This document shows positions 19,255 through 34,254 of a stretch of DNA of 35,254 bases, piece by piece. Source of the DNA: a virus; the IMG/VR virus record IMGVR_UViG_3300020205_001679, positions 1 through 35,254 of that record. One strand, written 5' to 3'. The notes beneath the pieces were generated by a model. That model was given only the letters and a program-made list of their open reading frames with translations. It was not told where the DNA came from and ran no database searches. Numbering within the stretch: position 1 is the first letter of the stretch; each line of letters opens with the position of its first letter. The translations under genes and the position numbers were made by a program.

Positions 19255-19260
19255 AATATA
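19255..19260 (-). promoter_or_regulatory. Extended -10 promoter, cassette A
   Basis: Minus strand TGCTATATT with no -35 box; predicted start near 19248. The dyad 19288-19313 is centred ~52 bp upstream. Drives the 19193-17896 operon. Confidence 0.6.
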
Positions 19261-19287
19261 GCACCTTTTGAGGTCTGTGCCCGTTTA

Positions 19288-19313
19288 CTGTGCCAGTGCT
19301 ACAGGTGGCACAG
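19288..19313 (-). terminator. Hairpin CTGTGCCA / TGGCACAG, cassette A
   Basis: Perfect 8-bp stem, 10-nt loop, 24 nt after the 51-aa gene. No T-run follows, so it may be a regulatory dyad as much as a terminator. Confidence 0.55.
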
Positions 19314-20852: not shown

Positions 20853-20858
20853 AATCTA
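20853..20858 (-). promoter_or_regulatory. Extended -10 promoter, cassette B
   Basis: Minus strand TGGTAGATT, weaker than the other copies. No -35. The dyad 20887-20910 is centred ~52 bp upstream of the predicted start. Confidence 0.5.
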
Positions 20859-20886
20859 CCAGAAAAAAGTTCCAGTGCCCGTTTAG

Positions 20887-20910
20887 TGTGCCACTAGTAC
20901 AAGTGGTACA
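20887..20910 (-). terminator. Hairpin TGTGCCAC / GTGGTACA, cassette B
   Basis: 8-bp dyad with one imperfect pair and an 8-nt loop, 14 nt after the 50-aa gene. It is followed by CACTAAACGGGCAC rather than a T-run. Confidence 0.5.
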
Positions 20911-21575: not shown

Positions 21576-21581
21576 AATATA
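21576..21581 (-). promoter_or_regulatory. Extended -10 promoter, cassette C
   Basis: Minus strand AAAAGGTGCTATATTAAG, identical around the box to cassette A. No -35. Drives the 21521-20925 operon. Confidence 0.6.
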
Positions 21582-21609
21582 GCACCTTTTGGGGTCTGTG
21601 CTCTTTTAG

Positions 21610-21633
21610 TGTGCCACAAGAACAAGTGGCACA
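21610..21633 (-). terminator. Hairpin TGTGCCAC / GTGGCACA, cassette C
   Basis: Perfect 8-bp stem with an 8-nt loop (TTGTTCTT on the minus strand), 8 nt after the 58-aa gene. Almost identical to cassette E, including the following CACTAAAAGAGCAC. Confidence 0.6.
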
Positions 21634-22883: not shown

Positions 22884-22901
22884 GATTACTTCGTAATTAT
22901 A
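22884..22901 (-). promoter_or_regulatory. Promoter D: extended -10 overlapped by an ATTACnnnGTAAT dyad
   Basis: Minus strand TGCTATAAT (box 22901-22896), a full extended -10, running into ATTACGAAGTAAT. The dyad covers the end of the -10 and the predicted start (~22889), an operator position. Shared with promoter H. Confidence 0.65.
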
Positions 22902-22930
22902 GCACCCACAGCGGGGGTTTGGGGGGTGTA

Positions 22931-22956
22931 ATGTGCCACAAGGATTAGTGGCACAT
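22931..22956 (-). terminator. Hairpin ATGTGCCAC / GTGGCACAT, cassette D
   Basis: Perfect 9-bp stem, 8-nt loop, 4 nt after the 61-aa gene's stop. No T-run. Confidence 0.6.
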
Positions 22957-22960: not shown

Positions 22961-23146
22961 TCATCCTTCCAGCAGTTCTGGGTAGTATTCTTCCACCTCA
23001 GAAATCAATTCTTGATCACTGTAAGAACTGATGTTTTCTTCAAGTTGATCTCCAACAATACGGATGAGATCTTTGGTACTCATATTATCAAGCACACGGT
23101 CAATGTATGCTTCAACAAGTTCTTGACGGTTAAAAGTGTTAGTCAT
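22961..23146 (-). CDS. Small hypothetical protein, 61 aa
   Basis: Start at 23146 (MTNTFNRQELVEAYIDRVLD), 2 nt after the previous stop. Acidic and helical, with STKDLIRIVGDQLEE and YYPELLEG. I recall close relatives in other cyanomyophages as conserved hypotheticals. Coupled behind the membrane protein gene. Confidence 0.75.
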   Translation of the reverse strand: MTNTFNRQELVEAYIDRVLDNMSTKDLIRIVGDQLEENISSYSDQELISEVEEYYPELLEG

Positions 23147-23148
23147 AA

Positions 23149-23478
23149 TCAAGCGAAAGTGTATTGGAAGAACAGAGAATCAACCAGGCGATTGCTATTC
23201 AGTTTCACCCAACGATAAACTTTGGGAGTAGCAATCACAATCGCAGCAATGAAATCAATTACATTCACAACAAAGCGAATGAGATTAACTTGCGTTGCTT
23301 CACCATTCTCATCCCACCACAGTTGAAATGCAGTCCAAAGATAAGAACTTACAGCAACTGCAATAGCATAAGCAGTAATAGAATACTTAACTACATTATC
23401 TCCAAACTTTACATAATCAAACTCTTGGAGTTTTTTTACCATCCCATCCACAGGAGGGAAAGAATTAGTCAGTTCCAT
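23149..23478 (-). CDS. Two-pass membrane protein, 109 aa
   Basis: Two hydrophobic helices at about residues 33-51 (ITAYAIAVAVSSYLWTAF) and 67-86 (FVVNVIDFIAAIVIA), with a Trp-rich loop (QLWWDENGE) and a basic segment after the second helix (RWVKLNSNR). Inner-membrane protein of unknown function; could be holin-like in topology, but holins sit elsewhere in T4-like phages. First gene behind cassette E. Confidence 0.75.
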   Translation of the reverse strand: MELTNSFPPVDGMVKKLQEFDYVKFGDNVVKYSITAYAIAVAVSSYLWTAFQLWWDENGEATQVNLIRFVVNVIDFIAAIVIATPKVYRWVKLNSNRLVDSLFFQYTFA

Positions 23479-23499
23479 TGTTGTAGAGAATAAAGAACA

Positions 23500-23526
23500 G
23501 GTGGTTCAGGTCCATCCCTCACCACC
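23500..23526 (-). other. Leader hairpin GGTGGT / ACCACC (cassette E)
   Basis: Fourth leader stem, in the same place as in A-C but with a changed sequence that still pairs. The following TTCTTTATT is kept. The compensatory change supports pairing in the RNA. Confidence 0.55.
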
Positions 23527-23531
23527 CCTTA

Positions 23532-23537
23532 AGAATA
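23532..23537 (-). promoter_or_regulatory. Extended -10 promoter, cassette E
   Basis: Minus strand TGGTATTCT; no -35. The dyad 23566-23589 is centred ~52 bp upstream of the predicted start. Drives the 23478-22961 pair. Confidence 0.5.
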
Positions 23538-23565
23538 CCACATTTTGGACCCCGTGCTCTTTTAG

Positions 23566-23589
23566 TGTGCCACAAGAACAAGTGGCACA
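23566..23589 (-). terminator. Hairpin TGTGCCAC / GTGGCACA, cassette E
   Basis: Perfect 8-bp stem and the same 8-nt loop as cassette C, 20 nt after the 68-aa gene. The flanking CACTAAAAGAGCAC is also shared. Confidence 0.6.
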
Positions 23590-23609
23590 TCTCAACCTTG
23601 GTCTCACCC

Positions 23610-23816
23610 TCAGTTAGCAGTAAGAACAAGATTAGCAACTTTATTTTCAGGCACAAAATCTTGCAACTTATCATAAACTCGTTGGAATTGATTTCCAAGG
23701 TTCATATAGTATGCAGCAAGATGTTTATCATCTGCATCATAAAGAGCATTTTCTTTCTCTTCAAGCGCAGAGATAATGTCTAGCAACTCACCAGAAGTAA
23801 ATGAAATTGAAGTCAT
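23610..23816 (-). CDS. Hypothetical protein, 68 aa
   Basis: MTSISFTSGELLDIISALEE, then KENALYDADDKHLAAYYMNL: helical, acidic, possibly a two-helix hairpin. ATGA overlap with the preceding gene. Last gene of its operon. No family recognised. Confidence 0.75.
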   Translation of the reverse strand: MTSISFTSGELLDIISALEEKENALYDADDKHLAAYYMNLGNQFQRVYDKLQDFVPENKVANLVLTAN

Positions 23817-24043
23817 TGTGCAGAATTAGGAAGGCAGTTGTCATCAACAATAACAGTGGTTTCAATGAGAACATCGAAATCTTCTGTCATCTTAACATAA
23901 TTCCACTCCTTATCAGTCTCATCCTCCACATTTTCCTGATAACAGTGAATGAAACCTTCCGAGTCTTGTTTTACATAACAACCATCATAGTCCTCATTAT
24001 CAAAGACATAACCAGATGCAATTAGTGCTTCAATGAAAGTCAT
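23813..24043 (-). CDS. Acidic hypothetical protein, 76 aa
   Basis: MTFIEALIASGYVFDNEDYD, GCYVKQDSEGFIHCYQENVE, ending VIVDDNCLPNSAQ. Three Cys and many acidic residues in a likely beta fold. Overlaps both neighbours by ATGA. Function unknown. Confidence 0.75.
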   Translation of the reverse strand: MTFIEALIASGYVFDNEDYDGCYVKQDSEGFIHCYQENVEDETDKEWNYVKMTEDFDVLIETTVIVDDNCLPNSAQ

Positions 24044-24240
24044 TTGATGTCGAAGATGTCGAATAGTTCTCGTTGAGTTTTGGTAAACAGAGTATCCTCA
24101 GGGGGATAATCATAGAGTTCCAACTCAAACTCTTTGTAGAAATACATGATGTCCCGAAGAGCAGTAAGTTGCTTCTCGGTCAAGATTTCTTCAATAGTCA
24201 GCACAGTGTCAAGCATAGTTTCAGTAGTCAGTTCCATCAT
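24040..24240 (-). CDS. Hypothetical protein, 66 aa
   Basis: Start at 24240 (MMELTTETMLDTVLTIEEIL), overlapping the preceding gene by 20 bp; further upstream in-frame residues lie inside that gene. Acidic helical protein ending RELFDIFDIK. No family recognised. Confidence 0.7.
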   Translation of the reverse strand: MMELTTETMLDTVLTIEEILTEKQLTALRDIMYFYKEFELELYDYPPEDTLFTKTQRELFDIFDIK

Positions 24241-24388
24241 TTTCACACTTTTGAATCCAGTAAGCATAAGCAGGAAAGTTCATTGGATGATCTTGTCCTC
24301 TCTTATACCAATCAAATGCATTATTCACTCGATTCTCAGGCACCAACAGATAGGGAATGTTGTGTGGAATGTGTGGAACGTAAGTCAT
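24221..24388 (-). CDS. Small hypothetical protein, 55 aa
   Basis: Start at 24388 (MTYVPHIPHNIPYLLVPENR) because GAGGAAG lies a good distance upstream; an ATG at 24406 would coincide with the predicted transcription start. Pro/Tyr-rich, with NNAFDWYKRGQDHPM. First of four genes behind cassette F. Confidence 0.7.
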   Translation of the reverse strand: MTYVPHIPHNIPYLLVPENRVNNAFDWYKRGQDHPMNFPAYAYWIQKCENDGTDY

Positions 24389-24412
24389 CGGGTCTTCCTC
24401 AACCATAGAACT

Positions 24413-24418
24413 ACTATA
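24413..24418 (-). promoter_or_regulatory. Extended -10 promoter, cassette F
   Basis: Minus strand TGGTATAGT; predicted start ~24406, leaving a leader of under 20 nt. No room for the leader hairpin found in A, B, C and E. Confidence 0.55.
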
Positions 24419-24447
24419 CCACAATCAGGGCACTGTGCTCTTTTAGT

Positions 24448-24469
24448 GTGCCACTAGCACAAGTGGCAC
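24448..24469 (-). terminator. Hairpin GTGCCACT / AGTGGCAC, cassette F
   Basis: Perfect 8-bp stem, 6-nt loop, beginning at the last base of the helicase stop codon. Followed by CACTAAAAGAGCAC, as in C and E. Confidence 0.6.
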
Positions 24470-25704
24470 TAGGCAGCAAGAACTTCACCTTTCACAAAGA
24501 TAGTGTCGATCACATTTTGAAGTTGACGTGCAATCTTATCACCATAGTTGTTATTCACAGGAATAGTGATCGTACCAAAGGGTTTCTTATAGAAAGCAAA
24601 CTCACCTGGTTTCATTTTACCAGATGCGATTGCTTGCCTGTCATCTTTATGGACGCGAATAATACGTCCAACAGTCTGTGCCATTTCAATCAGAGGAAGA
24701 TTGCGAAGCATAATGCAATGCGTCAGACCGTGAATACTAATACCCTCACTCATAATTGAATAGTGAAACACAATGAACTTTTTGTCTGGATCAGAACCAA
24801 ACTCATTCATCGTATCAAAGAATACCTCACGCGATACTTTCTTCTTATCAATGTATGCACCGTGCTTAGATGTGATATGCATGATAGTATAACCCATCTC
24901 ATTGAGTTGTTGCAGCAAATCACTTTCAGTGAACATAGACCAAATTACTTTGGTACTCGGTGCAGCAACAAGAACTTTAGGTGCATCACAATCAGAAATA
25001 CCAGATAGGATACCTACAATGTTCTCTGCATCCACAAAAGGTGCATTTTCCTTTGTGCGAATAGTTTGTGCTTCATAAGGCACAACCCGAGGAGGAATAA
25101 TACTACCTGCCTCAATGAGTTCTGTTGCAGGAATACTGATGATATTGCTACCATACACAGAAGTATTATTCATCGACTCTTCGCTGTTATTGAACTTCGG
25201 AGTTGCAGTGAAGAAATAAGCATTATCTGCAACTTCAGAAGTATGTGCGATACCTACAAAGTTAGAAGGTTTCACACAATGATGCGCTTCATCAAAGAAT
25301 ACAACATCAATGTTAATATCTGCATCATTCACCCGATGAATTGAGTTGTATGTGGTGAAGATAATGTGATGCTTTCCACTTCCGATTGCTGTGTCATTGT
25401 ATTCTGCAATGACAGATGGACGTGTAGAGGATTGATGATGAGTTTCTCCACTATGACAATGCATATAAGCAACATTCTGGTCTTTGAGATATTCTTCAAA
25501 CTCCGAACAGAGTTGATTTGCAAGCAGAATACGAGGTGCAACAACAACAAACGTCATCGGTTCTAGTGCATTAAGAATCCTCTGACGTGTATCTTCCATC
25601 ATTACAATAGTTTTACCTGCACCAGTAGGAAGATAACAAGTTCCCTTGATTGCTTTCTTCAGAGCATCAAGAGTACGTTGCTGGTAAGGGTAAAGTTGCA
25701 TCAT
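24469..25704 (-). CDS. SF2 DNA/RNA helicase (UvsW/SSL2-like), 411 aa
   Basis: Superfamily 2 motifs in order: Q-like LYPYQQRTLDAL (~4-15), Walker A LPTGAGKT (~26-33), motif Ia VVAPRILL, motif II DEAHH (~136), motif III FTATP, and motif VI MAQTVGRIIRVHK with VGR...R near 350. The order and size fit UvsW-type repair/fork-remodelling helicases and the helicase part of type III restriction subunits. No nuclease motif is seen, so phage recombination/replication is likelier. Alone between cassettes P and F. Confidence 0.82.
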   Translation of the reverse strand: MMQLYPYQQRTLDALKKAIKGTCYLPTGAGKTIVMMEDTRQRILNALEPMTFVVVAPRILLANQLCSEFEEYLKDQNVAYMHCHSGETHHQSSTRPSVIAEYNDTAIGSGKHHIIFTTYNSIHRVNDADINIDVVFFDEAHHCVKPSNFVGIAHTSEVADNAYFFTATPKFNNSEESMNNTSVYGSNIISIPATELIEAGSIIPPRVVPYEAQTIRTKENAPFVDAENIVGILSGISDCDAPKVLVAAPSTKVIWSMFTESDLLQQLNEMGYTIMHITSKHGAYIDKKKVSREVFFDTMNEFGSDPDKKFIVFHYSIMSEGISIHGLTHCIMLRNLPLIEMAQTVGRIIRVHKDDRQAIASGKMKPGEFAFYKKPFGTITIPVNNNYGDKIARQLQNVIDTIFVKGEVLAA

Positions 25705-25724
25705 CAATCAATTTGTATTCATAC

Positions 25725-25730
25725 AGTATA
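25725..25730 (-). promoter_or_regulatory. Extended -10 promoter of the helicase, cassette P
   Basis: Minus strand TGCTATACT. The TG abuts or lies inside the 3' arm of a 12-bp hairpin (25730-25761), so RNA polymerase binding and the hairpin DNA share bases. No -35. Confidence 0.6.
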
Positions 25731-25761
25731 GCATCTCTCCCTTGGGTTTGGGAGAGATGCT
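25730..25761 (-). terminator. Hairpin AGCATCTCTCCC / GGGAGAGATGCT
   Basis: Perfect 12-bp stem with an 8-nt loop; the longest GC-containing hairpin in the early region. It starts 21 nt after the 101-aa gene and overlaps the -10 region of the helicase promoter. No T-run follows. Confidence 0.65.
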
Positions 25762-25783
25762 GGACGGTTCTACAAGTGGCACT
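25761..25783 (-). other. Chimeric dyad element (cassette P)
   Basis: Plus strand TGGACGGTT (left) then ACAAGTGGCACT (right). The left arm matches the hairpin at 31423-31444 and the right arm matches the GTGCCAC hairpins, so the arms no longer pair. It differs at one base of 23 from the element at 26321. Confidence 0.6.
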
Positions 25784-26088
25784 CAGAATACGATAGGGTC
25801 TAGAGTAGGTTCTTTGAATACCTTAGAAGTCTCTACACTATTCCTATCAACCTCGACAAAGGTATTATACTTACTTTCTTCTACCTTGTCAACTACCTCA
25901 TCAAAGATAATCAGGTTAATACAAGCATCCTTTGCTTCTTTAAGAGTTTTTGTAACGTGTTGAGGAGTATCTACAACATCAGCAACAATCCATTTGGTAG
26001 CATTTGCTTTACGGATGAATCCAACGGTGTTAGAATCCTTCTGAATCTCGTAGATACCAGCAGACAGACGGGAGAAGTTGATAGTCAT
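25783..26088 (-). CDS. Hypothetical protein, 101 aa
   Basis: Start at 26088 (MTINFSRLSAGIYEIQKDSN). Beta-rich N-terminus (TVGFIRKANATKWIVADVVD), then a helix (TLKEAKDACINLIIFDEV): resembles a small single-strand-style fold but no family recognised. It follows the 53-aa gene by 2 nt. Confidence 0.75.
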   Translation of the reverse strand: MTINFSRLSAGIYEIQKDSNTVGFIRKANATKWIVADVVDTPQHVTKTLKEAKDACINLIIFDEVVDKVEESKYNTFVEVDRNSVETSKVFKEPTLDPIVF

Positions 26089-26090
26089 AA

Positions 26091-26252
26091 TCAATAAACA
26101 GGTTTGGATGTAATTTCTTTCCACTCACGGGGAAAGATTTCATTAGCAATCTTATCGTTTAGTTTGACACAGTTGAGAGGTTTGATGTTGCTTTTGCGTT
26201 GAAAGTTCTCAACAGTTCCATCCTTAAACTCAATATGAATGTCGTAGAGCAT
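26091..26252 (-). CDS. Small hypothetical protein, 53 aa
   Basis: MLYDIHIEFKDGTVENFQRK, then basic residues and FPREWKEITSKPVY. Likely a short beta-hairpin/helix protein. First gene behind promoter H, whose start lies ~25 nt upstream. Unknown function. Confidence 0.7.
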   Translation of the reverse strand: MLYDIHIEFKDGTVENFQRKSNIKPLNCVKLNDKIANEIFPREWKEITSKPVY

Positions 26253-26272
26253 AATCAAACAGCATCTTTTTT

Positions 26273-26290
26273 GATTACTCCGTAATCATA
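26273..26290 (-). promoter_or_regulatory. Promoter H: extended -10 overlapped by a GATTACnnnGTAATC dyad
   Basis: Minus strand TGCTATGAT (box 26290-26285) running into ATTACGGAGTAATC. The dyad 26273-26287 has perfect 6-bp arms around 3 nt. The same arrangement occurs at promoter D. The -10 also contains the stop codon of the GIY-YIG gene. Confidence 0.65.
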
Positions 26291-26993
26291 GCACGGCAGG
26301 GGTTGGTTTGGGGGATGTTATGGACGGTCCTACAAGTGGCACTTGGGGCACATTTTCTTTCTTGATTGCTATAATATCTTTATATTTTTTAGTTTCACCT
26401 TTCAATAATCTTTTTATGCTTGAATAGTTATATTTTCCATTATTTCTACACCATTTTCTTATTCCAAAAATAGTAATTTGATTACCATCAGCAAAAGTTA
26501 TTATAAATGAAATTTTCATTGCTGTTATTTGCGAATTACTCATTTTTGTTCTCGTTTCTTCATTCACAATACATCTATTTTTTGCTGCTGCACTCATTTT
26601 CTCTCGTGATTCTTCACTCATAACTTTTCCTCTATGAGCATCTCCTATTTTTTTCTTTGTTTCCTCTTTATGAATTCTACCTTTACCTACCTCACTTAAT
26701 TTTTTTCTAGTATTTTTATTAGTAATATATCCACCTTTTCCTTCTCCACCATCAGTTTTATTTCTTAAAATACCAGTTCCTAAATCTTTTCTACCAAACA
26801 CAGCAATCATATAGATTTCGTGCTTAAATGCTTCTTCTTCGGTTATATTTTGTTTTAAGAGAATAATCCTTGATTTGACTTTTGGTGGATTAACTTCCCC
26901 TTTATATTTTCTGTATGCCCTATCACCTTTACCTTTTCCGATGTAATAAGGTGTTCCATCTTCACGCAAATATGCGTAAGTGTAGTATTCCAT
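26286..26993 (-). CDS. GIY-YIG homing endonuclease with NUMOD-type repeats, 235 aa
   Basis: Start at 26993 (MEYYTYAYLREDGTPYYIGK). GIY-YIG core: YTYAY...YYIGKGKGDR...R (residues ~3-25), with the catalytic Glu region KHEIYMIAVFGRKD. Residues ~95-165 hold three DNA-binding repeats (RKKLSEVGKGR, KKKIGDAHRGK, REKMSAAAKNR), typical of Seg/F-TflI-type free-standing homing nucleases. Own late promoter. The C-terminus (VPQVPLVGPSITSPKPTP) is read from the intergenic dyad/promoter cassette and ends in the next -10 box, so the native 3' end seems lost. Confidence 0.85.
   Translation of the reverse strand: MEYYTYAYLREDGTPYYIGKGKGDRAYRKYKGEVNPPKVKSRIILLKQNITEEEAFKHEIYMIAVFGRKDLGTGILRNKTDGGEGKGGYITNKNTRKKLSEVGKGRIHKEETKKKIGDAHRGKVMSEESREKMSAAAKNRCIVNEETRTKMSNSQITAMKISFIITFADGNQITIFGIRKWCRNNGKYNYSSIKRLLKGETKKYKDIIAIKKENVPQVPLVGPSITSPKPTPAVL
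26321..26343 (-). other. Chimeric dyad element (cassette H)
   Basis: Plus strand TGGACGGTCC then TACAAGTGGCACT: the left arm is of the GGACG type and the right arm of the GTGGCAC type. Centred ~54 bp upstream of promoter H's start, as in the intact dyads. Lies inside the GIY-YIG reading frame. Confidence 0.6.
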
Positions 26994-27016
26994 CTGCTTT
27001 TTGTTTGTGGTAATAC

Positions 27017-27024
27017 TATTTATA
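27017..27024 (-). promoter_or_regulatory. T4-type late promoter of the GIY-YIG gene
   Basis: Exact TATAAATA on the minus strand, 24 bp before the ATG at 26993. Confidence 0.7.
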
Positions 27025-27048
27025 CAAGAAAAGGAGCATTTCTGCTCC
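27024..27048 (-). terminator. Rho-independent terminator
   Basis: Minus strand GGAGCA / TGCTCC with a GAAA loop, then TTTTCTTG. It separates the 77-aa gene from the GIY-YIG gene. Confidence 0.65.
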
Positions 27049-27087
27049 CACTCTTTGCTCTTGAATAACCACAAACAAAAGCACTAT

Positions 27088-27095
27088 TATTTATA
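27088..27095 (-). promoter_or_regulatory. Second late-promoter match
   Basis: Exact TATAAATA on the minus strand, just after the 77-aa gene, but followed by the terminator 27024-27048 rather than a gene. May be a remnant of a lost small gene. Confidence 0.4.
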
Positions 27096-27097
27096 AA

Positions 27098-27331
27098 TTA
27101 TGGCAAAATACAAAAAGACCCACAAAACTTTTTAACCCATTGAAGAGTATCAAAGTATCCTCTAGGATTTGACATTACCATACTTGCATCCTTGCGAGGA
27201 TTGTAAGCAACAGCAACATACTTATAGCAATCAGGAGATTCCTCAATCTCTTCAATCCACATCTGATTTACATTACAATCGTGCCAATCCCAACGAGAGG
27301 TAGTGTAATGGAACACCTCAGAAACAATCAT
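27098..27331 (-). CDS. Hypothetical protein, 77 aa
   Basis: Start at 27331 (MIVSEVFHYTTSRWDWHDCN), with AAAGGAGA 6 nt upstream, one of the best ribosome-binding sites here; upstream in-frame codons cross the promoter and hairpin. Aromatic-rich, with CYKYVAVAYNPRKDASMVMS and FCGSFCILP. Single gene behind cassette I. No family recognised. Confidence 0.75.
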   Translation of the reverse strand: MIVSEVFHYTTSRWDWHDCNVNQMWIEEIEESPDCYKYVAVAYNPRKDASMVMSNPRGYFDTLQWVKKFCGSFCILP

Positions 27332-27357
27332 CAGGTCTCCTTTGCTTGTGTCCCTGT

Positions 27358-27363
27358 ATTGTA
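27358..27363 (-). promoter_or_regulatory. -10 promoter, cassette I
   Basis: Minus strand CTGATGCCCTACAAT, sharing CTGATGCCCTA with cassette J. No -35; dyad centred ~53 bp upstream. Confidence 0.55.
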
Positions 27364-27390
27364 GGGCATCAGAGGGCGCTGTGGGGGTCT

Positions 27391-27418
27391 GTAGGGACAC
27401 TTGGGAAAGTGTCCCTAC
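27391..27418 (-). terminator. Hairpin GTAGGGACACTT / AAGTGTCCCTAC, cassette I
   Basis: Perfect 12-bp stem with a 4-nt loop, 1 nt after the methyltransferase stop. The strongest stem of the set; no T-run. Confidence 0.7.
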
Positions 27419-27419
27419 C

Positions 27420-28379
27420 CTATCCAATAAAAGAGAGAATATCTGTTGTTTCTTGCGTTGCCTCAGTTACTAATTGAATTGCTTGTGGGTTTATATCACA
27501 GGTAATACAGTTTCTTCCTAGAAGTTGTGATGCGATTGCTGTTGTACCAGAACCAGCAAATGGATCTAATACCCATCCATTCTCAGGGCAAGAAGACTTA
27601 ATAATCCTCTCTAGTAGTTTGAGTGGTTTTTGTGTAGGGTATTTACGCTTGTTTGATTCACTGCGAGAGATGAAATAAACATCATCCCATAGATTTTGAA
27701 CGGGAACACCTTTATTATCTTCCAAATAGATTTTCTTATAAATTGTATTCTTTCCAAAGTGTAGAAGATTATTATTATCCATTTCTACAAGCATATCTTC
27801 ACTCACTCTCCAACCATACTCTGGGTTATAACCCTTGAATTCATACTTTCTTCCAGGGCGACTCTTTTCTCCTGTAGTTTTAGCAAGAGCATAGAATCCT
27901 TTTTCATCTTTATTTTTGAAACTATTCTTCTCATACTTTGAATCAAGGTTTGTATATTCAACTTCAAAGTATGGATTTCCTTTTCTAAGCACCATAATTG
28001 AATCTACTATATTACCCCATCCATTCTTAATGTTATTTTTTGGACCGCTTCGTTTCCAAGAGATATTGGTATAAAAAGAATTACGAACTTCCTCTTTTAC
28101 TTTAGATAAGACAAGTGCATTGCCGATAAAGTTATTGTGAAGATATATCCATCCATTCTTATTGAGAATAGACCATCCTTTATTAATAATATCTGCATAC
28201 CAATCAATATAATCATCAAAGGATTCCCAATTATCTGAAAATCCTTTTTCTTCACCATCTTGCTCTAGCATCTTAAAATCCCTCTGCAATCCAAATGGAG
28301 GGTCCATATAAATGAGATCAAATGTTTGATCAATTTTGGTCATCTTCTCTGCAGACTGCTGTAAAATTTGAATAGTCAT
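27420..28379 (-). CDS. Beta-class N6-adenine DNA methyltransferase, 319 aa
   Basis: Motif IV DPPF at ~26-29 (FDLIYMDPPFGL) precedes motif I DPFAGSGTT (~275-283) and motif II-like CDINP, the beta-class order. SENGW/TQKPLKLLERII (motif X region) and the variable middle (~120-240) would be the target-recognition part. It transfers a methyl group from SAM to adenine, less likely N4-cytosine. The gene overlaps the putative nuclease gene by 50 bp, the layout of a type II restriction-modification pair. A solitary protective methyltransferase is the alternative. Confidence 0.85.
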   Translation of the reverse strand: MTIQILQQSAEKMTKIDQTFDLIYMDPPFGLQRDFKMLEQDGEEKGFSDNWESFDDYIDWYADIINKGWSILNKNGWIYLHNNFIGNALVLSKVKEEVRNSFYTNISWKRSGPKNNIKNGWGNIVDSIMVLRKGNPYFEVEYTNLDSKYEKNSFKNKDEKGFYALAKTTGEKSRPGRKYEFKGYNPEYGWRVSEDMLVEMDNNNLLHFGKNTIYKKIYLEDNKGVPVQNLWDDVYFISRSESNKRKYPTQKPLKLLERIIKSSCPENGWVLDPFAGSGTTAIASQLLGRNCITCDINPQAIQLVTEATQETTDILSFIG

Positions 28380-29115
28380 AGTTCTTTGCTTTGGTTGATG
28401 TAAGTAGTTGTTTAACTTTATCTTGCTGAAGTTTGATTACGACCTGAGAGTTCTTGTTTGCTTTACTTAGACCAAGAAAGGCGTTGATACCATTGTTACT
28501 CGTAACACGAATACGCAGACCACAATCATAAAGATTTATGCCATCAGAAAATAGTACTTTACGGGATGATTTCCCTTTTCCTCGAAGAATCACAGTAAAT
28601 CCTTGATTGATGTAATCAACAGCAGGATGCTGTTCTACGCCAAACACATACAGGGTATTAGTTTTAGTGTCGGTAATTACGACATCAAAATCACTATTTG
28701 CCTCAATCAAACCACGACGTAGAATGGTGATAATTTGATCACTACTCAGAATATCCAAAGACAATTCACATAGTTGATTGAAATTATCCCTTACTTTTAG
28801 AATAAACTCATCATCTTTAATGAGGTCTTTGGATATAGAACGCATTTCTTTCATAGTAGAAAGAAATTTATCAAAAGTGTTACCTAATACATCATTATAC
28901 TTGCTGGTGTTAAACCAGTCAAATGACCCGTTTGTGATACCCTCTTTGCGCTTGATACTAATTTTCTTATCACCAGCAACAGCATCTGCCTTTTGAGTGG
29001 TTCCGCCACGCTTTTTAACAGTGGAAGAATAGATTTTCAACTCATTAAGAATAGAAATAGTCTGGTTCTCATTTTTGACTCCACCATGATGAACCGAACC
29101 GTCTGTCTTAAACAT
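28330..29115 (-). CDS. Putative restriction endonuclease-like protein, 261 aa
   Basis: N-terminus HHGGVKNENQTISILNELK, then TTQKADAVAGDKKISIKRKE (~38-57). This fits a PD-(D/E)XK core: a helix with Glu, an Asp, 8-9 residues, then S-I-K in place of E-x-K, a variant known in several type II enzymes. The middle is helical and the C-terminal half beta-rich (VITDTKTNTLYVFGVEQ; SRKVLFSDGINLYDCGLRIR), possibly DNA-recognising. Overlaps the methyltransferase by 50 bp and sits just upstream of it. The nuclease call rests on motif and context only; a target-specificity or accessory protein is possible. Confidence 0.55.
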   Translation of the reverse strand: MFKTDGSVHHGGVKNENQTISILNELKIYSSTVKKRGGTTQKADAVAGDKKISIKRKEGITNGSFDWFNTSKYNDVLGNTFDKFLSTMKEMRSISKDLIKDDEFILKVRDNFNQLCELSLDILSSDQIITILRRGLIEANSDFDVVITDTKTNTLYVFGVEQHPAVDYINQGFTVILRGKGKSSRKVLFSDGINLYDCGLRIRVTSNNGINAFLGLSKANKNSQVVIKLQQDKVKQLLTSTKAKNYDYSNFTAVCREDDQN

Positions 29116-29152
29116 TGAATTTGTTTTGTGCTTGTTTATTGTAAAAAGTTAA

Positions 29153-29184
29153 AAAGAGGGAAACTAGAAGAAGCGTCCCTCTTT
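29153..29184 (-). terminator. Rho-independent terminator overlapping the 77-aa stop
   Basis: Minus strand AAAGAGGGA / TCCCTCTTT, 9-bp perfect stem, 13-nt loop, then TTAACTTTTT. The stop codon of the 77-aa gene lies inside the loop. Separates the restriction-modification pair from the upstream genes, so the pair probably has its own promoter (a TACAAT box at 29143-29138 is the only candidate). Confidence 0.65.
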
Positions 29185-29397
29185 ATTATTGGTAGTTTTT
29201 AGATAGATACTATCCATAATGCAAAGCGAGAGTTCATAAAGAAGATCCCCCTCCACTTCTCCCATGTGATTTTTGATGCTTGTTGGAATAACCTCTTGCA
29301 GAAGTTCAATTACTCGCGGATCTGAAAGAACATCCTCTACCACTTCAGATGTAAGAGTATCTGCAAGTTTGCGGACAGTTGAAACGGAAAGAGTCAT
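29164..29397 (-). CDS. Hypothetical protein, 77 aa
   Basis: MTLSVSTVRKLADTLTSEVV, then EDVLSDPRVIELLQEVIPTS: all-helical, acidic, ending with a basic tail (KTTNNKEGRFF). ATGA overlap with the 41-aa gene. No family recognised. Confidence 0.75.
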   Translation of the reverse strand: MTLSVSTVRKLADTLTSEVVEDVLSDPRVIELLQEVIPTSIKNHMGEVEGDLLYELSLCIMDSIYLKTTNNKEGRFF

Positions 29398-29519
29398 TTT
29401 ACGTTCAATTTAAGTTTGAGTGCTTGCAATGCTTGTTTCCTTGCTTTGAGTTTCCCCTTGCAAGTTCCTTTTGTAGTCTTATCCTTTCCTGAATTGTGTT
29501 GCCAATTTGGAGTAGTCAT
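29394..29519 (-). CDS. Small basic protein, 41 aa
   Basis: MTTPNWQHNSGKDKTTKGTC then a Lys-rich helix (KGKLKARKQALQALKLKLNV). Highly basic, so probably nucleic-acid or membrane associated (inference). First gene behind cassette J; stop overlaps the next ATG. Confidence 0.7.
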   Translation of the reverse strand: MTTPNWQHNSGKDKTTKGTCKGKLKARKQALQALKLKLNVK

Positions 29520-29541
29520 TGCCTTGATGTCTCATAGGACT

Positions 29542-29547
29542 ATGATA
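29542..29547 (-). promoter_or_regulatory. -10 promoter, cassette J
   Basis: Minus strand CTGATGCCCTATCAT; no -35. The TGA just upstream is also the stop codon of the 47-aa gene. Dyad centred ~53 bp upstream of the predicted start. Confidence 0.55.
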
Positions 29548-29552
29548 GGGCA

Positions 29553-29696
29553 TCAGAGGGGTCTGTGGGCGTCTATAGGGACACTAGAAGAAGTGTCCCT
29601 TGCATCATCCTCTTGCTGCTGTTTTAGTAGTGCTTCATTTGCTGCTTCTCTTTCAGCAGCAATCTCACGCATCTCATCTAATGTTAAGTCTTTCAT
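29553..29696 (-). CDS. Small protein whose C-terminus reads through hairpin J, 47 aa
   Basis: MKDLTLDEMREIAAEREAAN, EALLKQQQEDD form a helix; the last ~15 residues (ARDTSSSVPIDAHRPL) are encoded by the hairpin/promoter cassette and end in CTGATGCCC. The native stop appears to have been replaced by the cassette, or the cassette evolved inside the gene. Confidence 0.62.
   Translation of the reverse strand: MKDLTLDEMREIAAEREAANEALLKQQQEDDARDTSSSVPIDAHRPL
29577..29600 (-). terminator. Hairpin AGGGACACT / AGTGTCCCT, cassette J
   Basis: Perfect 9-bp stem, 6-nt loop, same family as cassette I (GGGACACT). It lies within the 3' end of the 47-aa gene. No T-run. Confidence 0.55.
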
Positions 29697-29704
29697 TGAT
29701 TTGA

Positions 29705-29956
29705 TTAGTAGACACTAGTATCTATTAAAATCCAATCCAAATCAAGTCTGTCAAGGTATTGAATCAATTCATACTCATTATCAGGGAGCATTTCTTCTTC
29801 ATCTAACTCAAATGATGCTTCACATAAACCAGGTCCAAACTCTGGTGGATCATAAAGAGTTTGATCGTGTGCCAAGATAGAATCTTCAACAATCGCAGTT
29901 ACAGTAACTATTCCAAACTCATCACAATCAACTTTTTCGATTTGTTGGATAGTCAT
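29705..29956 (-). CDS. Acidic hypothetical protein, 83 aa
   Basis: MTIQQIEKVDCDEFGIVTVT, then AIVEDSILAHD and ASFELDEEEMLPDNEYELIQ. Beta-sheet then helix; strongly acidic. Followed 8 bp later by the 47-aa gene. No family; an early host-takeover role would be guesswork. Confidence 0.75.
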   Translation of the reverse strand: MTIQQIEKVDCDEFGIVTVTAIVEDSILAHDQTLYDPPEFGPGLCEASFELDEEEMLPDNEYELIQYLDRLDLDWILIDTSVY

Positions 29957-29987
29957 TTTAGAAATTATTAAATGGACTATGGAGAAT

Positions 29988-30009
29988 AGCGGTTCTGCCC
30001 CGCTTTTTT
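29988..30009 (+). terminator. Plus-strand terminator-like hairpin
   Basis: AGCGG / CCGCT, 7-nt loop, then TTTTTT on the plus strand. No plus-strand gene is nearby, so it may stop antisense transcription or be fortuitous. Confidence 0.35.
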
Positions 30010-30055
30010 ATCTGTGCAAGAGATAGATTTTACTAATTAAACTAATTCCCCAGAA

Positions 30056-30081
30056 TAGAGACCAAACTATGTTGGTCTCTA
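30056..30081 (-). terminator. Hairpin TAGAGACCAA / TTGGTCTCTA
   Basis: Perfect 10-bp stem with a 6-nt loop, 4 nt after the 47-aa gene. Only TTCT follows, so termination is plausible but not canonical. Confidence 0.55.
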
Positions 30082-30085
30082 AGTA

Positions 30086-30229
30086 TCAAACACTCAAAGA
30101 GTAATCAAGTTCCTCATTTTTGACTTCATAATCGCCAATGAGTTCAACGTAATCTTCAAGATCAATGCCAAGATAATTCATTGCGAAATCTTCATAGTCA
30201 TTGATTGGATTTTGATTGCTAATAAACAT
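30086..30229 (-). CDS. Acidic small protein, 47 aa
   Basis: MFISNQNPINDYEDFAMNYL, then GIDLEDYVELIGDYEVKNEE. It has the best ribosome-binding site in the window (AAGGAGG, 6 nt before ATG), implying high expression. Single-gene operon between cassette L and hairpin 30056-30081. Function unknown. Confidence 0.75.
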   Translation of the reverse strand: MFISNQNPINDYEDFAMNYLGIDLEDYVELIGDYEVKNEELDYSLSV

Positions 30230-30255
30230 TGAAACCTCCTTGACTTGATGAATGA

Positions 30256-30274
30256 ATCATAACACGATTATCGT
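30256..30274 (-). promoter_or_regulatory. Promoter L with an upstream ACGATnATCGT dyad
   Basis: Minus strand TGTTATGAT (box 30261-30256). The palindrome ACGATAATCGT (30274-30264) lies just upstream of the -10, an operator-like position specific to this copy. Confidence 0.55.
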
Positions 30275-30290
30275 ACCCCGTAAAGGTTAT

Positions 30291-30314
30291 TGTGCCACTA
30301 AAAGAAGTGGCACA
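30291..30314 (-). terminator. Hairpin TGTGCCACT / AGTGGCACA, cassette L
   Basis: Perfect 9-bp stem with a 6-nt loop, ~38 nt after the 59-aa gene. Centred ~53 bp upstream of the predicted start. Confidence 0.6.
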
Positions 30315-30324
30315 GTAGTATTAG

Positions 30325-30347
30325 TTATACACTCAACGTGTGTATAA
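30325..30347 (-). terminator. Second hairpin TTATACAC / GTGTATAA
   Basis: Perfect 8-bp AT-rich stem, 7-nt loop, 4 nt after the 59-aa gene and just before hairpin L. It may be the true 3' end of the operon. Confidence 0.45.
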
Positions 30348-30351
30348 TTGA

Positions 30352-30531
30352 CTACTTATCAAACTTCTCTAGAAATTCATCAATTTTCCTAATCTTTTCA
30401 GTGTAGTCTGCAACCAGATCTGCGTGAGGATAATTGTAATACTCTGGACGTTTCAAGCAATTAAGTAGATGCTGCTTCACTGCTCTTTGAATATCACATT
30501 CAGCAAGTATTCCAGTTCGTATTTCACTCAT
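30352..30531 (-). CDS. Hypothetical protein, 59 aa
   Basis: Start at 30531 (MSEIRTGILAECDIQRAVKQ) overlapping the preceding stop as TGATG, with AGGAG 7 nt upstream; an ATG 6 nt earlier lacks spacing. Helical, ending YTEKIRKIDEFLEKFDK. No family recognised. Confidence 0.72.
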   Translation of the reverse strand: MSEIRTGILAECDIQRAVKQHLLNCLKRPEYYNYPHADLVADYTEKIRKIDEFLEKFDK

Positions 30532-30806
30532 CACCATTCTCCTCTTTGAACGTGGATTTTGCGGATTTCAGTGTAAATAAACTTCTTCAGTTTAGGATCT
30601 TCAGTAGCATCAAATGCTTTGTAAAGACGATTAAGATAATCATCTTGCTTGGTGCATTTGACTACTTTAACATTAGTTACACCAAGTTCTTTAAGAGAAG
30701 AACCTGATTTTACCTTCGCACGTCCAAAATTTCCAGATACAACACCTTGAGTACGAAGTTTGGGACGAATCTTAGAAAGATTTGAATTAGCGAAATTAGT
30801 AGTCAT
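30531..30806 (-). CDS. Basic hypothetical protein, 91 aa
   Basis: Start at 30806 (MTTNFANSNLSKIRPKLRTQ, then GVVSGNFGRAKVKSGSSLKE). Very basic N-terminal half, then a helical half (DDYLNRLYKAFDATEDPKLK). Nucleic-acid binding is plausible but unproven. It lies between the 47-aa gene (5 bp) and the coupled 59-aa gene. Confidence 0.75.
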   Translation of the reverse strand: MTTNFANSNLSKIRPKLRTQGVVSGNFGRAKVKSGSSLKELGVTNVKVVKCTKQDDYLNRLYKAFDATEDPKLKKFIYTEIRKIHVQRGEW

Positions 30807-30811
30807 TGAAC

Positions 30812-30955
30812 TCACTTGAAGGAAACATTAACACCAACTACTTTTGCTTTGGGATTTCTCGCAAGTGCAGTTTGACGTGCATCTTGTGGATTGGTTGCTT
30901 GCACTTCTTCCTTAAAGACTTTACCACCAACGTAGAGATCAACAACGTACTTCAT
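30812..30955 (-). CDS. Small hypothetical protein, 47 aa
   Basis: MKYVVDLYVGGKVFKEEVQA, then TNPQDARQTALARNPKAKVV, ending VGVNVSFK. The beta-helix-beta pattern with 'ATNPQDARQTA...NP' resembles small cyanophage/host proteins of the DpnD/PcfM-like type, which I cannot confirm. First gene behind cassette M. Confidence 0.72.
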   Translation of the reverse strand: MKYVVDLYVGGKVFKEEVQATNPQDARQTALARNPKAKVVGVNVSFK

Positions 30956-30981
30956 AGAGTGGGTTTGTTTTGTATGAGTGT

Positions 30982-30987
30982 ATTGTA
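30982..30987 (-). promoter_or_regulatory. Extended -10 promoter, cassette M
   Basis: Minus strand CCCTGCTACAATAC; no -35. The chimeric dyad 31018-31039 lies at the usual distance. Confidence 0.55.
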
Positions 30988-31017
30988 GCAGGGAAACCCC
31001 CGTAGGTCCAGCGGTCT

Positions 31018-31039
31018 TGTGCCAGTTCAGGGAGTGTCC
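31018..31039 (-). other. Chimeric dyad element (cassette M)
   Basis: Plus strand TGTGCCAGTTC (as in the left arm of cassette O) followed by AGTGTCC (as in the right arm of I/J). The arms do not pair. It covers the last codons of the 63-aa gene. Confidence 0.55.
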
Positions 31040-31218
31040 GCTTTGGCGCGACCTTTGGAGACTAATCCATTGTCATAGAAGTATTTTACCCTCTCTCGCC
31101 GCGCTTGAAGAAGCATATCATACTCTTCTTGTTGTTGTTTATTCAAACTAAAATCTTGCCGCCTCCAAATTTGTTGAAGTTCTTGAAGATGCGGGAGAAC
31201 ATTTACAGTATCAGTCAT
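31027..31218 (-). CDS. Hypothetical protein, 63 aa
   Basis: Start at 31218 (MTDTVNVLPHLQELQQIWRR). Helical, Gln/Arg-rich, with SLNKQQQEEYDMLLQARRER and a basic end (SKGRAKADTP); the last residues are encoded by the chimeric dyad. It follows the 45-aa gene by 5 bp. Function unknown. Confidence 0.72.
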   Translation of the reverse strand: MTDTVNVLPHLQELQQIWRRQDFSLNKQQQEEYDMLLQARRERVKYFYDNGLVSKGRAKADTP

Positions 31219-31223
31219 TAATT

Positions 31224-31361
31224 TCAATAATCGTAATTGGACTTCAGAAAAGAATTGAATGTTTGATCTTCATCTTCTTCATCAAGGAAACCATCAAAAG
31301 ATGCTTCTGCAAAATCAAAACCAGAAGTCTCTTCTACTTGGAAATCATCAAAATCGTCCAT
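31224..31361 (-). CDS. Very acidic peptide, 45 aa
   Basis: MDDFDDFQVEETSGFDFAEA, then SFDGFLDEEDEDQTF: Asp/Glu/Phe-rich with no basic residue until the last dozen positions. Good ribosome-binding site (GAGAGG). It looks like a flexible acidic motif peptide that could bind a basic partner such as RNA polymerase or a nucleic-acid-binding protein; inference. First gene behind cassette N. Confidence 0.7.
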   Translation of the reverse strand: MDDFDDFQVEETSGFDFAEASFDGFLDEEDEDQTFNSFLKSNYDY

Positions 31362-31386
31362 TGACCTCTCTCATCTGAACTTAAGT

Positions 31387-31392
31387 ATCATA
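31387..31392 (-). promoter_or_regulatory. -10 promoter, cassette N
   Basis: Minus strand GGGGTATGATAC; no TG extension, no -35. Dyad centred ~53 bp upstream. Confidence 0.5.
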
Positions 31393-31422
31393 CCCCAAAA
31401 TGGGAGGTTTGGGAAGGGGTGA

Positions 31423-31444
31423 TGGACGGTTTCCCAATCGTCCA
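31423..31444 (-). terminator. Hairpin TGGACGGTT / AATCGTCCA, cassette N
   Basis: Nine-position stem with one imperfect pair and a 4-nt loop, 1 nt after the 121-aa gene. Representative of the third arm type (GGACG), also seen in the chimeras at 25761 and 26321. Confidence 0.55.
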
Positions 31445-31445
31445 C

Positions 31446-31811
31446 TCAACGATTTACAATATCCTTTAATCTTTGTTTTTTTGCAGATAGTTGTGCGTAT
31501 GCTTCACGCTCCATTTCATCATGAGATTGTCTAATTTGCTGTCCTTTCCAACGAGCAGATTGTCTTGCAACTTGCTTATTGTATTCACTAGGCTCCATAT
31601 GTGGAGTTTGCTCTGTTTGTAATTCTCTTTTAATTTCTTGCTTGAGTTGTTCTTTTTCTTGTCTTTTTTTCTCTTGATTTTGAGATCTTTCTCTATATGC
31701 TGATACTCTATCTTTATATGCCTGCATTTGATCCAATTGCCTTTGACGCAGTTGTTGTCTTCTCTGTGTGAGTCTATTTACATCCTCATTAAATTGCGTA
31801 AAGGTTTTCAT
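31446..31811 (-). CDS. Coiled-coil basic protein, 121 aa, probable late gene
   Basis: MKTFTQFNEDVNRLTQRRQQ followed by an almost continuous charged helix rich in Gln, Arg, Lys and Glu (SQNQEKKRQEKEQLKQEIKR). The MKTFxQFNED start is common, in my memory, to late cyanomyophage proteins near head genes. A TATAAATA promoter lies 18 bp upstream, which supports a structural or assembly role. Function unknown. Confidence 0.75.
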   Translation of the reverse strand: MKTFTQFNEDVNRLTQRRQQLRQRQLDQMQAYKDRVSAYRERSQNQEKKRQEKEQLKQEIKRELQTEQTPHMEPSEYNKQVARQSARWKGQQIRQSHDEMEREAYAQLSAKKQRLKDIVNR

Positions 31812-31829
31812 TATCCTAATCTTTTTAGA

Positions 31830-31837
31830 TATTTATA
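31830..31837 (-). promoter_or_regulatory. T4-type late promoter of the 121-aa gene
   Basis: Exact TATAAATA on the minus strand, fused to the T-run of the upstream terminator. Confidence 0.7.
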
Positions 31838-31862
31838 AAAAAAGAGGGCACTTAGACCCTCT
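31837..31862 (-). terminator. Rho-independent terminator after the 307-aa gene
   Basis: Minus strand AGAGGG / CCCTCT, 8-nt loop, followed by TTTTTTTAT. It directly abuts the next late promoter, so one late unit ends where the next begins. Confidence 0.75.
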
Positions 31863-31868
31863 CATACT

Positions 31869-32792
31869 TTATTTTGACTGCTTTGATCCAGTCATACGAT
31901 CATATATTTTTTGCGCTCTAGGATCTTTTAGAGTTTGACCTTTATTCCACTTCTTTTTCTCATTCTCATTCTCATTCTTTTCTTCAATGATACTATCAAT
32001 CCACTCTTCACTCATATATTCTATAATTGCTTCTGCTGCTGGTTCAGAATCAGCATATCCTTCATCGAGGAGATGAGAAAAAATAGTATCATAAAGATCT
32101 ATTTCTTCTTTACGGAGACCTTTGAGTGTGAGTGCAAGTCTTGCTCTTTTTCCTAATTTACCACCTTTTTTGGCAGCAGATCTTAATGTCTTTGTTGGAA
32201 TATTTTCCTCTTCAGGAACACCAAGTTGCTTACTTAATGAACCTGGTTTTTTGATTGCCTTTTGAATCCACTTTTCTTCTTCATTCAATTCCTCAAGGCA
32301 AATCTCATACATATCATCCCAAGTGTATGACGAAAGATCATATCCCTCATCAATGAGAGCATCTACAATCCATTCAATATCTTCTCTCTGAAGTGCTGCT
32401 GCTCTTTTTGCTGCTTTATTACCTCTACCGTGTTTCAGATCAGCACCATATTTACTATAACCCGCTTTCAAATAACGATCGTGTGCATCTGCAGATTGCT
32501 GAGCGACTTTTTTAGTATATACAGAACCACCATATTTCTCTTGGTCTCTTTCTGCTCTTGCACGAGACCTATTGAGAATTTGTCTCTTTGCAGAAGTATC
32601 AGATCTTTCTGGACCAACATTATATCTTCTGCGGAGAAATTCACCTCTACTTTCGGGTTTGGGTGCTTCTACCTCTTGTTTCTTACCACCAAGAAGTTTT
32701 TTTACAGCAGAGCGAAGACCTTCCTCAATTTGTTGAGATTGATAAACATTCATATAAGATTCTTGTAAAGCACGAATATCTTTTGAATTCAT
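31869..32792 (-). CDS. Late basic/acidic modular protein, 307 aa
   Basis: Two alternating kinds of segment. Basic parts: GEFLRRRYNVGPERSD...SRARAER and SLSKQLGVPEEENIPTKTLR with SAAKKGGKLGKRARLALTLK. Acidic helical repeats: DIEWIVDALIDEGYDLSSYT and LYDTIFSHLLDEGYADSEPA, then EAIIEYMSEEWIDSIIE. The 'LLDEGYADS...A..I...MSEEW' repeat and the LGV..E.IP..L..AAK segment recur in marine phage virion-associated proteins, as I remember them. Own late promoter and strong terminator. Exact role unknown. Confidence 0.75.
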   Translation of the reverse strand: MNSKDIRALQESYMNVYQSQQIEEGLRSAVKKLLGGKKQEVEAPKPESRGEFLRRRYNVGPERSDTSAKRQILNRSRARAERDQEKYGGSVYTKKVAQQSADAHDRYLKAGYSKYGADLKHGRGNKAAKRAAALQREDIEWIVDALIDEGYDLSSYTWDDMYEICLEELNEEEKWIQKAIKKPGSLSKQLGVPEEENIPTKTLRSAAKKGGKLGKRARLALTLKGLRKEEIDLYDTIFSHLLDEGYADSEPAAEAIIEYMSEEWIDSIIEEKNENENEKKKWNKGQTLKDPRAQKIYDRMTGSKQSK

Positions 32793-32816
32793 TTGTATTT
32801 TGGAGCACTATGGTAA

Positions 32817-32824
32817 TATTTATA
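32817..32824 (-). promoter_or_regulatory. T4-type late promoter of the 307-aa gene
   Basis: Exact TATAAATA on the minus strand, 24 bp before the ATG at 32792. Confidence 0.7.
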
Positions 32825-32825
32825 T

Positions 32826-33101
32826 TTACTCAAATTCAAATGGTCTATTAGTTTTTCTTGGTTCTGGTGTTTGATACACTGGAAGAACAGAAGATTCGAT
32901 AATACATTTAACAGGTTTTGGTTCTGCTTGAATTATATGAGTTCTTACTGCGTTAAAGACAATAAAACAGTTTGTGATAAAAATAGACAGAAACATGATA
33001 AGTCGAATTATTGCAACTTTATCTGCCTCTTTATCACATTCACTCGCTTTTTCCCCAAGTGCTTTAGAAATGAGACGAAACAGAGTTTTCCTCTTCATCA
33101 T
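32826..33101 (-). CDS. Single-pass membrane protein, 91 aa
   Basis: MMKRKTLFRLISKALGEKAS then a transmembrane helix at about 29-52 (AIIRLIMFLSIFITNCFIVF), followed by a Pro-rich outer segment (AEPKPVKC...PVYQTPEPRKTNR). Basic N-terminus suggests it faces the cytoplasm. Overlaps the 87-aa gene by 38 bp. Function unknown. Confidence 0.7.
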   Translation of the reverse strand: MMKRKTLFRLISKALGEKASECDKEADKVAIIRLIMFLSIFITNCFIVFNAVRTHIIQAEPKPVKCIIESSVLPVYQTPEPRKTNRPFEFE

Positions 33102-33327
33102 AGATTGAATTGCGTGACTTAATATATTTTAGATTTTCCCAATCACTTTTATAACAAACAACAAGAAGTCTATTATTTGCATGAAATGGAGCATCCAAAA
33201 GATTTATATCATCTTTTGGATGAACTCTAGTTTCAATAGTCAGATACTCATCATCTTTGTAGTAAATCCATCCTTTGATGTGAGGTTTCCACTCAACATA
33301 GTCATTTACTTTAGGGTCATACTTCAT
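33064..33327 (-). CDS. Hypothetical protein, 87 aa
   Basis: MKYDPKVNDYVEWKPHIKGW, then IYYKDDEYLTIETRVHPKDD and HANNRLLVVCYKSDWENLKY. SH3-like beta-barrel appearance (DYVEW...KGWIYY...TIE). No family named. Overlaps the 55-aa gene by 11 bp. Confidence 0.78.
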   Translation of the reverse strand: MKYDPKVNDYVEWKPHIKGWIYYKDDEYLTIETRVHPKDDINLLDAPFHANNRLLVVCYKSDWENLKYIKSRNSIYDEEENSVSSHF

Positions 33328-33484
33328 ATTCCTTCTCGACGCACAGAAGAGAAATTAAAGTTTTGAGTTTAGCAATCTCTTCTTCTTGTTCGTTGATTTT
33401 ATTCTGAAGACGACTAATTTGTGTTTGATATTGAGTCTTCAGATCAAACAACATTTTATTGGTGTGCATAACGTGATTTGTCAT
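33317..33484 (-). CDS. Small coiled-coil protein, 55 aa
   Basis: MTNHVMHTNKMLFDLKTQYQ, TQISRLQNKINEQEEEIAKL: regular heptads over nearly the whole length, so a probable dimeric coiled coil. 3 nt after the 77-aa gene's stop; its end overlaps the 87-aa gene. Function unknown. Confidence 0.72.
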   Translation of the reverse strand: MTNHVMHTNKMLFDLKTQYQTQISRLQNKINEQEEEIAKLKTLISLLCVEKEYEV

Positions 33485-33487
33485 TGA

Positions 33488-34195: not shown

Positions 34196-34201
34196 ATTAT
34201 A
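34196..34201 (-). promoter_or_regulatory. -10 promoter, cassette O
   Basis: Minus strand CTGATGCTCTATAAT, full TATAAT with the same CTGATGC upstream as cassettes I and J. No -35. Confidence 0.6.
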
Positions 34202-34232
34202 GAGCATCAGGAGGGTCTTGTGGGAGTATAGT

Positions 34233-34254
34233 GTGCCAGTTCTTAAAGTGGCAC
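34233..34254 (-). terminator. Hairpin GTGCCA / TGGCAC, cassette O
   Basis: Perfect 6-bp stem, 10-nt loop. The stop codon (TAA) of the GIY-YIG gene lies in the loop. No T-run. Confidence 0.55.

Follow-up and report, generated by a model that had tools for sequence, protein, structure and literature searches.

Three inverted repeats in a 35-kb virus record raise the question of whether dyads built from unlike arms mark places where gene modules have been exchanged. The window, by which we mean the whole analysed stretch of 35,254 nucleotides (IMGVR_UViG_3300020205_001679), has relatives in IMG/VR and carries a 412-aa helicase as well as a gp6-like baseplate gene. Nearly all of its genes lie on the minus strand, and the dyads are therefore read on that strand. 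When phage records were searched with the region at the nucleotide level, S-SRM01 was the sole match, over 110 bp. Elsewhere in the window, positions 22470-22964 weakly resemble the ArdA antirestriction family, scoring under the curated cut-off, and one uninterrupted minus-strand reading frame (positions 53-11422) spans 3789 aa.

Strong hairpins number 16 in the window compared with 0-5 in Markov-shuffled copies, and they are not due to chance. The original prediction was that three dyads join arms from different hairpin families, and both the claimed positions and the claimed arms were found in the sequence, as were the intact reference dyads at 24448, 27394, 29578, 31423, and 34233. On the minus strand, in the coding direction, the mixed elements read GTGCCA-CTTGTAGAAC-CGTCCA (25761-25782), GTGCCA-CTTGTAGGAC-CGTCCA (26321-26342), and CGGACA-CTCCCTGAAC-TGGCAC (31019-31040). 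These hybrids are three of 14 minus-strand copies of one cassette of rigid geometry in the window, which are listed here together with three of the ORFs.

19255..19311, minus strand, cassette with matched dyad 19290-19311; -10 TATATT
20853..20909, minus strand, cassette with dyad 20888-20909 (GTACCA/TGGCAC); -10 TAGATT
21576..21632, minus strand, cassette with matched dyad 21611-21632; -10 TATATT
22896..22954, minus strand, cassette with matched dyad 22933-22954; -10 TATAAT
23532..23588, minus strand, cassette with matched dyad 23567-23588; -10 TATTCT
24413..24469, minus strand, cassette with matched dyad 24448-24469 (GTGCCA/TGGCAC), directly past the helicase stop codon
24469..25707, minus strand, DEAD/ResIII helicase, UvsW-like, 412 aa, equal in length to Syn9 gp75
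25725..25782, minus strand, cassette with mixed dyad 25761-25782 (GTGCCA/CGTCCA); -10 TATACT at 25725-25730; upstream of the UvsW-like helicase
26285..26342, minus strand, cassette with mixed dyad 26321-26342 (GTGCCA/CGTCCA); -10 TATGAT at 26285-26290; at the 3' end of the NUMOD3 ORF
26286..27074, minus strand, ORF with NUMOD3 motif (homing-endonuclease type), ending in the 26321 cassette
27358..27415, minus strand, cassette with matched dyad 27394-27415 (GGGACA/TGTCCC); -10 TACAAT
29542..29599, minus strand, cassette with matched dyad 29578-29599 (GGGACA/TGTCCC); -10 TATCAT
30256..30313, minus strand, cassette with matched dyad 30292-30313; -10 TATGAT
30982..31040, minus strand, cassette with mixed dyad 31019-31040 (CGGACA/TGGCAC); -10 TACAAT at 30982-30987
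31027..31227, minus strand, 66-aa ORF with its stop codon in the 31019 dyad loop; accompanies the dyad in relatives
31387..31444, minus strand, cassette with dyad 31423-31444 (TGGACG/CGTCCA); -10 TATGAT
34196..34254, minus strand, cassette with matched dyad 34233-34254; -10 TATAAT; the end of a GIY-YIG ORF lies inside

Each cassette consists of a 6-nt half-site, 10 nt, a second 6-nt half-site, 29-31 nt, and a -10 hexamer; the dyads run from 19290 to 34254, and a -10-like hexamer lies 29-31 nt downstream in all 14. Across the window and 119 related loci, arms of the family stood at a 10-nt gap in 445 unique contexts, compared with 0-8 for any other gap from 4 to 17. A position matrix recovered 757 oriented copies scoring at least 18, where chance would give about 25 at a looser cut-off of 13, and the cassette was present in every one of the five cyanomyophage isolates that were scanned, as well as in ~100 related contigs. 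The isolates, scanned as complete or nearly complete genomes, held 29 matrix copies in S-CRM01, 30 in S-SRM01, 24 in S-PM2, 18 in P-SSM2, and 10 in Syn9, against 0-0.7 expected by chance. Within each isolate the spacing from dyad to -10 peaks at 30 or 31 nt, despite the variable sequence of the interval. The half-sites share the core GNCA...TGNC, with GTGNCAgTT-N4-AAcTGNCAC as the best form, and intermediate arms such as GTGACA and TGTCAC are common, so that discrete arm families are absent.

An RNA stem under constraint predicts that arms match above randomly dealt arms. In the isolates, all six arm positions paired in 20.0% of copies compared with 19.7% after the arms were shuffled, while thinned IMG/VR contigs showed a small excess of matched arms (28.5% full pairing compared with 21.9%). 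When the arms were sorted into classes (L1R1 131, L1R2 57, L2R1 84, L2R2 70) the odds ratio was 1.9, and by this table ~40% of copies would count as ‘chimeric’. A run of at least four T in the 8 nt past the right arm occurred in just 8% of copies. The 30-nt interval, in contrast to shuffled sequence (10-17%), held a stem of at least 6 bp in 33% of contig copies and 46% of isolate copies, roughly a threefold enrichment; the 25761 cassette has its own inverted repeat there (25730-25761), and some of the dyad-to--10 intervals of S-CRM01 carry terminator annotations in its record. It therefore looks as if the true stem-loop, where present, sits between the dyad and the -10. Given isolates without pairing constraint, few T-runs, and a stem-rich interval, the dyad itself resembles a pair of half-sites recognised by a DNA-binding protein.

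The reading that the dyads are transcription terminators kept for their RNA stem, with incidental -10 boxes, was weighed against the same data. The dyads mostly sit shortly after a stop codon, 11 of the 14 minus-strand dyads in the window pair at five or six of six positions or over shifted TGGACG/CGTCCA arms, and the annotation of S-CRM01 marks one dyad as a terminator (125862-125891), all of which a terminator would explain. It would not, however, need an exact 10-nt loop or a ~30-nt distance to a -10, and it would be expected to carry the missing U-tract and to show the pairing excess that the isolates lack. On the absent pairing constraint and absent U-tract we rejected a hairpin or terminator identity for the dyad, and we consider this account improbable. 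A known RNA family was also dropped as a candidate, as Rfam gave no match in the window, G-rich leaders included. Such leaders, which are foldable (GGGTGG...CCACCC), directly follow the -10 at 19255, 20853, 21576, and 23532, and 36 of 529 cassettes have one.

We consider it likely that the dyads are instead the upstream element of a recombining promoter cassette common to T4-like cyanophages (Kyanoviridae), with arms that are tolerant half-sites. The inverted half-sites would lie at a fixed 30 nt upstream of the -10 box, centred near -53. A -35-like hexamer (at least five of six positions) was found in 7% of intervals compared with 0.8% after shuffling. Taken with the fixed distance and the degenerate half-sites, the poor -35 points to a promoter that depends on an activator positioned around -53, where a dimeric protein would bind the half-sites and recruit host RNA polymerase to promoters that mostly have no -35. 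The interval stem-loop could at the same time end the upstream transcript. The late promoters of P2 and P4 (Ogr/Delta sites) offer a precedent, having a short half-site dyad near -55, a -10, little or no -35, and a phage-encoded activator. The cyanophage dyad may resemble these, as its centre would fall near -53 provided that the -10 is genuine, and a weak -35-like match occurs in a minority of copies; it differs in half-site sequence and spacing.

A host regulon was rejected as the context of these sites. The exact dyad plus -10 pattern occurred once in 61 host-family genomes, and the dyad alone, allowing one mismatch, occurred 0-2 times per host genome (2-3.5 Mb) compared with 1-11 times per phage (~0.2 Mb). 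This rarity favours a phage factor as the putative binder, towards which we lean over a host factor with few sites of its own.

If each half-site tolerates several sequences, then ‘mixed’ dyads are ordinary. The original prediction was that perfect hairpins of single families came first and that mixed dyads are scars of crossovers in the loop joining two families. The arms, however, assort nearly at random, the intermediate arms noted above leave no discrete families to be joined, and all three hybrids recur, already hybrid, in relatives. The helicase-promoter hybrid, GTGCCA...[CT]GTCC (25761), occurs in ~20 contigs in which the upstream neighbour is the ORF of the window, another ORF, or a tRNA, which implies that the hybrid predates those swaps; in Syn9 one cassette copy stands directly upstream of the gp75 helicase, a position matching that of the 25761 element. 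The 26321 hybrid recurs beside the same endonuclease ORF in one contig (L019:193), and the 31019 hybrid, CGGACA...TGGCAC, follows the same 66-aa ORF in L001, L002, L003, L004, and L018. Mixed arms are thus common and conserved, and alone are no mark of a swap.

Arms can differ even where no genes have been exchanged. At the helicase promoter, L002 and L018 retain the neighbours seen in the window but carry GGGACA on the left, and the inner arms of L018, GGACA/TGTCC, pair. Unchanged neighbours around dyads that differ by point mutation, which the original prediction had named as evidence against itself, are therefore found in part, at this site and in these two relatives.

The wider claim, that the dyads are sites of gene-module exchange, held up. 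Of the ends of homologous blocks (at least 95% identity), 13.7% lay no more than 15 nt from the centre of a dyad; randomly chosen positions did so at 1.9% and randomly chosen gene ends at 4.5%. In many pairs of relatives one flanking gene is up to 100% identical and the other side has nothing detectable in common, with the change at the cassette; the 24448 cassette is itself missing at that site in most relatives. With simple gene calling, neighbour pairs were broken at a frequency of 0.76 at dyads compared with 0.57-0.66 at other junctions, a difference of 0.16 (bootstrap 0.13-0.19). Gene order is labile across the whole region, so that the dyads are preferred rather than exclusive junctions. 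As judged from these sequence comparisons, the cassettes are places of gene swap or loss.

The position of the switch was placed by a simple likelihood on non-overlapping pairs, small in number (30 and 16 pairs at 90% identity). When the downstream gene was shared, about half of the switches fell just upstream of the dyad, the commonest point; when the upstream gene was shared, switches spread over the loop, the interval, and the leader, with about one quarter of the posterior in the loop. In some close pairs the switch does lie in the loop (for example L024:7035 with L017:3410), as crossover scars would require, yet the commonest point with a shared downstream gene lies outside it. That the breakpoints all fall in the loop had been deduced from arm types rather than observed, and the switch points that we infer range between the sequence immediately upstream of the dyad and the 5' leader, apparently covering the whole cassette, the loop included but not exclusively. 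A strict inheritance of halves, the left arm with the upstream gene and the right arm with the downstream gene, was also discarded, as it is not clean and the downstream gene is often the one that keeps the left arm.

The scatter of these switches also bears on the proposal that gene cassettes are moved by a mobile element or site-specific recombinase for which the dyads are the targets (attC-like sites or transposon ends). Modules are indeed flanked by a dyad at either end, and individual genes appear and disappear, but the crossover base is not fixed, switches being scattered over cassette, interval, and flank, and the conserved -10 and spacing suit a promoter. We regard this proposal as very unlikely. 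Under the promoter-cassette reading, the many similar cassettes between genes of one genome would themselves allow homologous recombination between cassettes, within or between phages, by which whole gene modules would be inserted, deleted, or replaced, and each product would be a hybrid cassette of unchanged geometry.

One such junction could be followed at the base level, and the 31019 element proved to be a real one, as relatives carry one additional gene there. After the 66-aa ORF, L001 and L004 have a cassette E1 (CGGACACTCCCTGAACTGGCACAAGAGG...), a small gene, a second cassette E2, and a gene matching window positions 30812-30955; E2 in L004 reads GTGACAGTCTTTGAACCGGCACAGGACC...TTTCCTGCTACAAT. 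The single cassette of the window is identical to E1 up to AAGA and E2-like beyond, placing the crossover in the shared stretch TGAAC[T/C]GGCACA[A/G]GA, which covers the dyad's right half together with its edge. The 31019 cassette thus resembles the product of joining the two cassettes on either side of the extra gene of L001 and L004, although a loss in the window and a gain in the relatives cannot be told apart. This resemblance to a real fusion is what loop crossovers would predict; against that, the dyad is already hybrid in the parent-like E1, so the junction did not create the hybrid arms. With the assortment and recurrence of the arms, this leaves the scar interpretation unlikely.

Homing-endonuclease-type genes may share these boundaries. 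A GIY-YIG ORF (34243-34818) terminates inside the 34233-34254 dyad, and the NUMOD3 ORF likewise within its promoter cassette, so that genes of this type may be carried along at the boundaries of the modules.

Doron and colleagues reportedly described, in 2016, a new early-gene regulatory element in Syn9 and P-TIM40 that is said to be conserved in T4-like cyanophages, a distribution that the dyad matches; that element is not known to have been linked there to gene exchange. We take the dyad to be, probably, this early-gene element, by its reported description and distribution. How early genes are driven in T4-like cyanophages, which are without Alt, ModA, MotA, and AsiA, was called unclear in 2010 (PMC2984593); the question becomes testable with a cassette whose element is defined, whose spacing is fixed, and whose natural variants number in the hundreds.

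The promoter-early stem-loops (PeSLs) of the T4-type phages RB49/phi1, PST, and nt-1 (Arbiol et al. 2010; Comeau et al. 2014), as summarised in PMC4503421, are small intergenic promoter cassettes, often with a stem-loop, present in many copies in variable regions, where recombination between copies shuffles genes. Like these, the cyanophage cassettes carry recombination junctions between relatives. The best-conserved part here, however, is the upstream 22-bp dyad with its degenerate half-sites at a fixed distance from the -10, and no sequence homology was found, RB49 giving zero cassettes by the same matrix in the 120 kb scanned and zero pattern matches in the whole record. As exchange sites the cyanophage cassettes behave in the manner of the PeSLs of T4-type coliphages, without a common sequence. 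PeSLs had been judged too sparse in S-PM2 to account for its gene gains (PMC4503421), in contrast to the 24 cassettes of the present type found in that genome. The cassettes offer a concrete route by which the variable regions of abundant cyanophages could turn over their genes so rapidly, a route that the S-PM2 study had set aside.

A broader and more tentative possibility, to which we give somewhat less than even weight, is that the main interchangeable part of cyanomyophages is one class of promoter with a two-half-site element near -53, read throughout by a putative phage-encoded or virion-borne activator. If true, a gene landing behind a cassette by recombination would be expressed at once and, with one activator reading all cassettes, the promoter itself would be the unit of gene shuffling. 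In S-CRM01 (NC_015569), several cassettes (127442, 128836, 134498, and 149102) lie just upstream of tRNA genes, and these cassettes have the start-proximal sequence AGCTAAGT in common.
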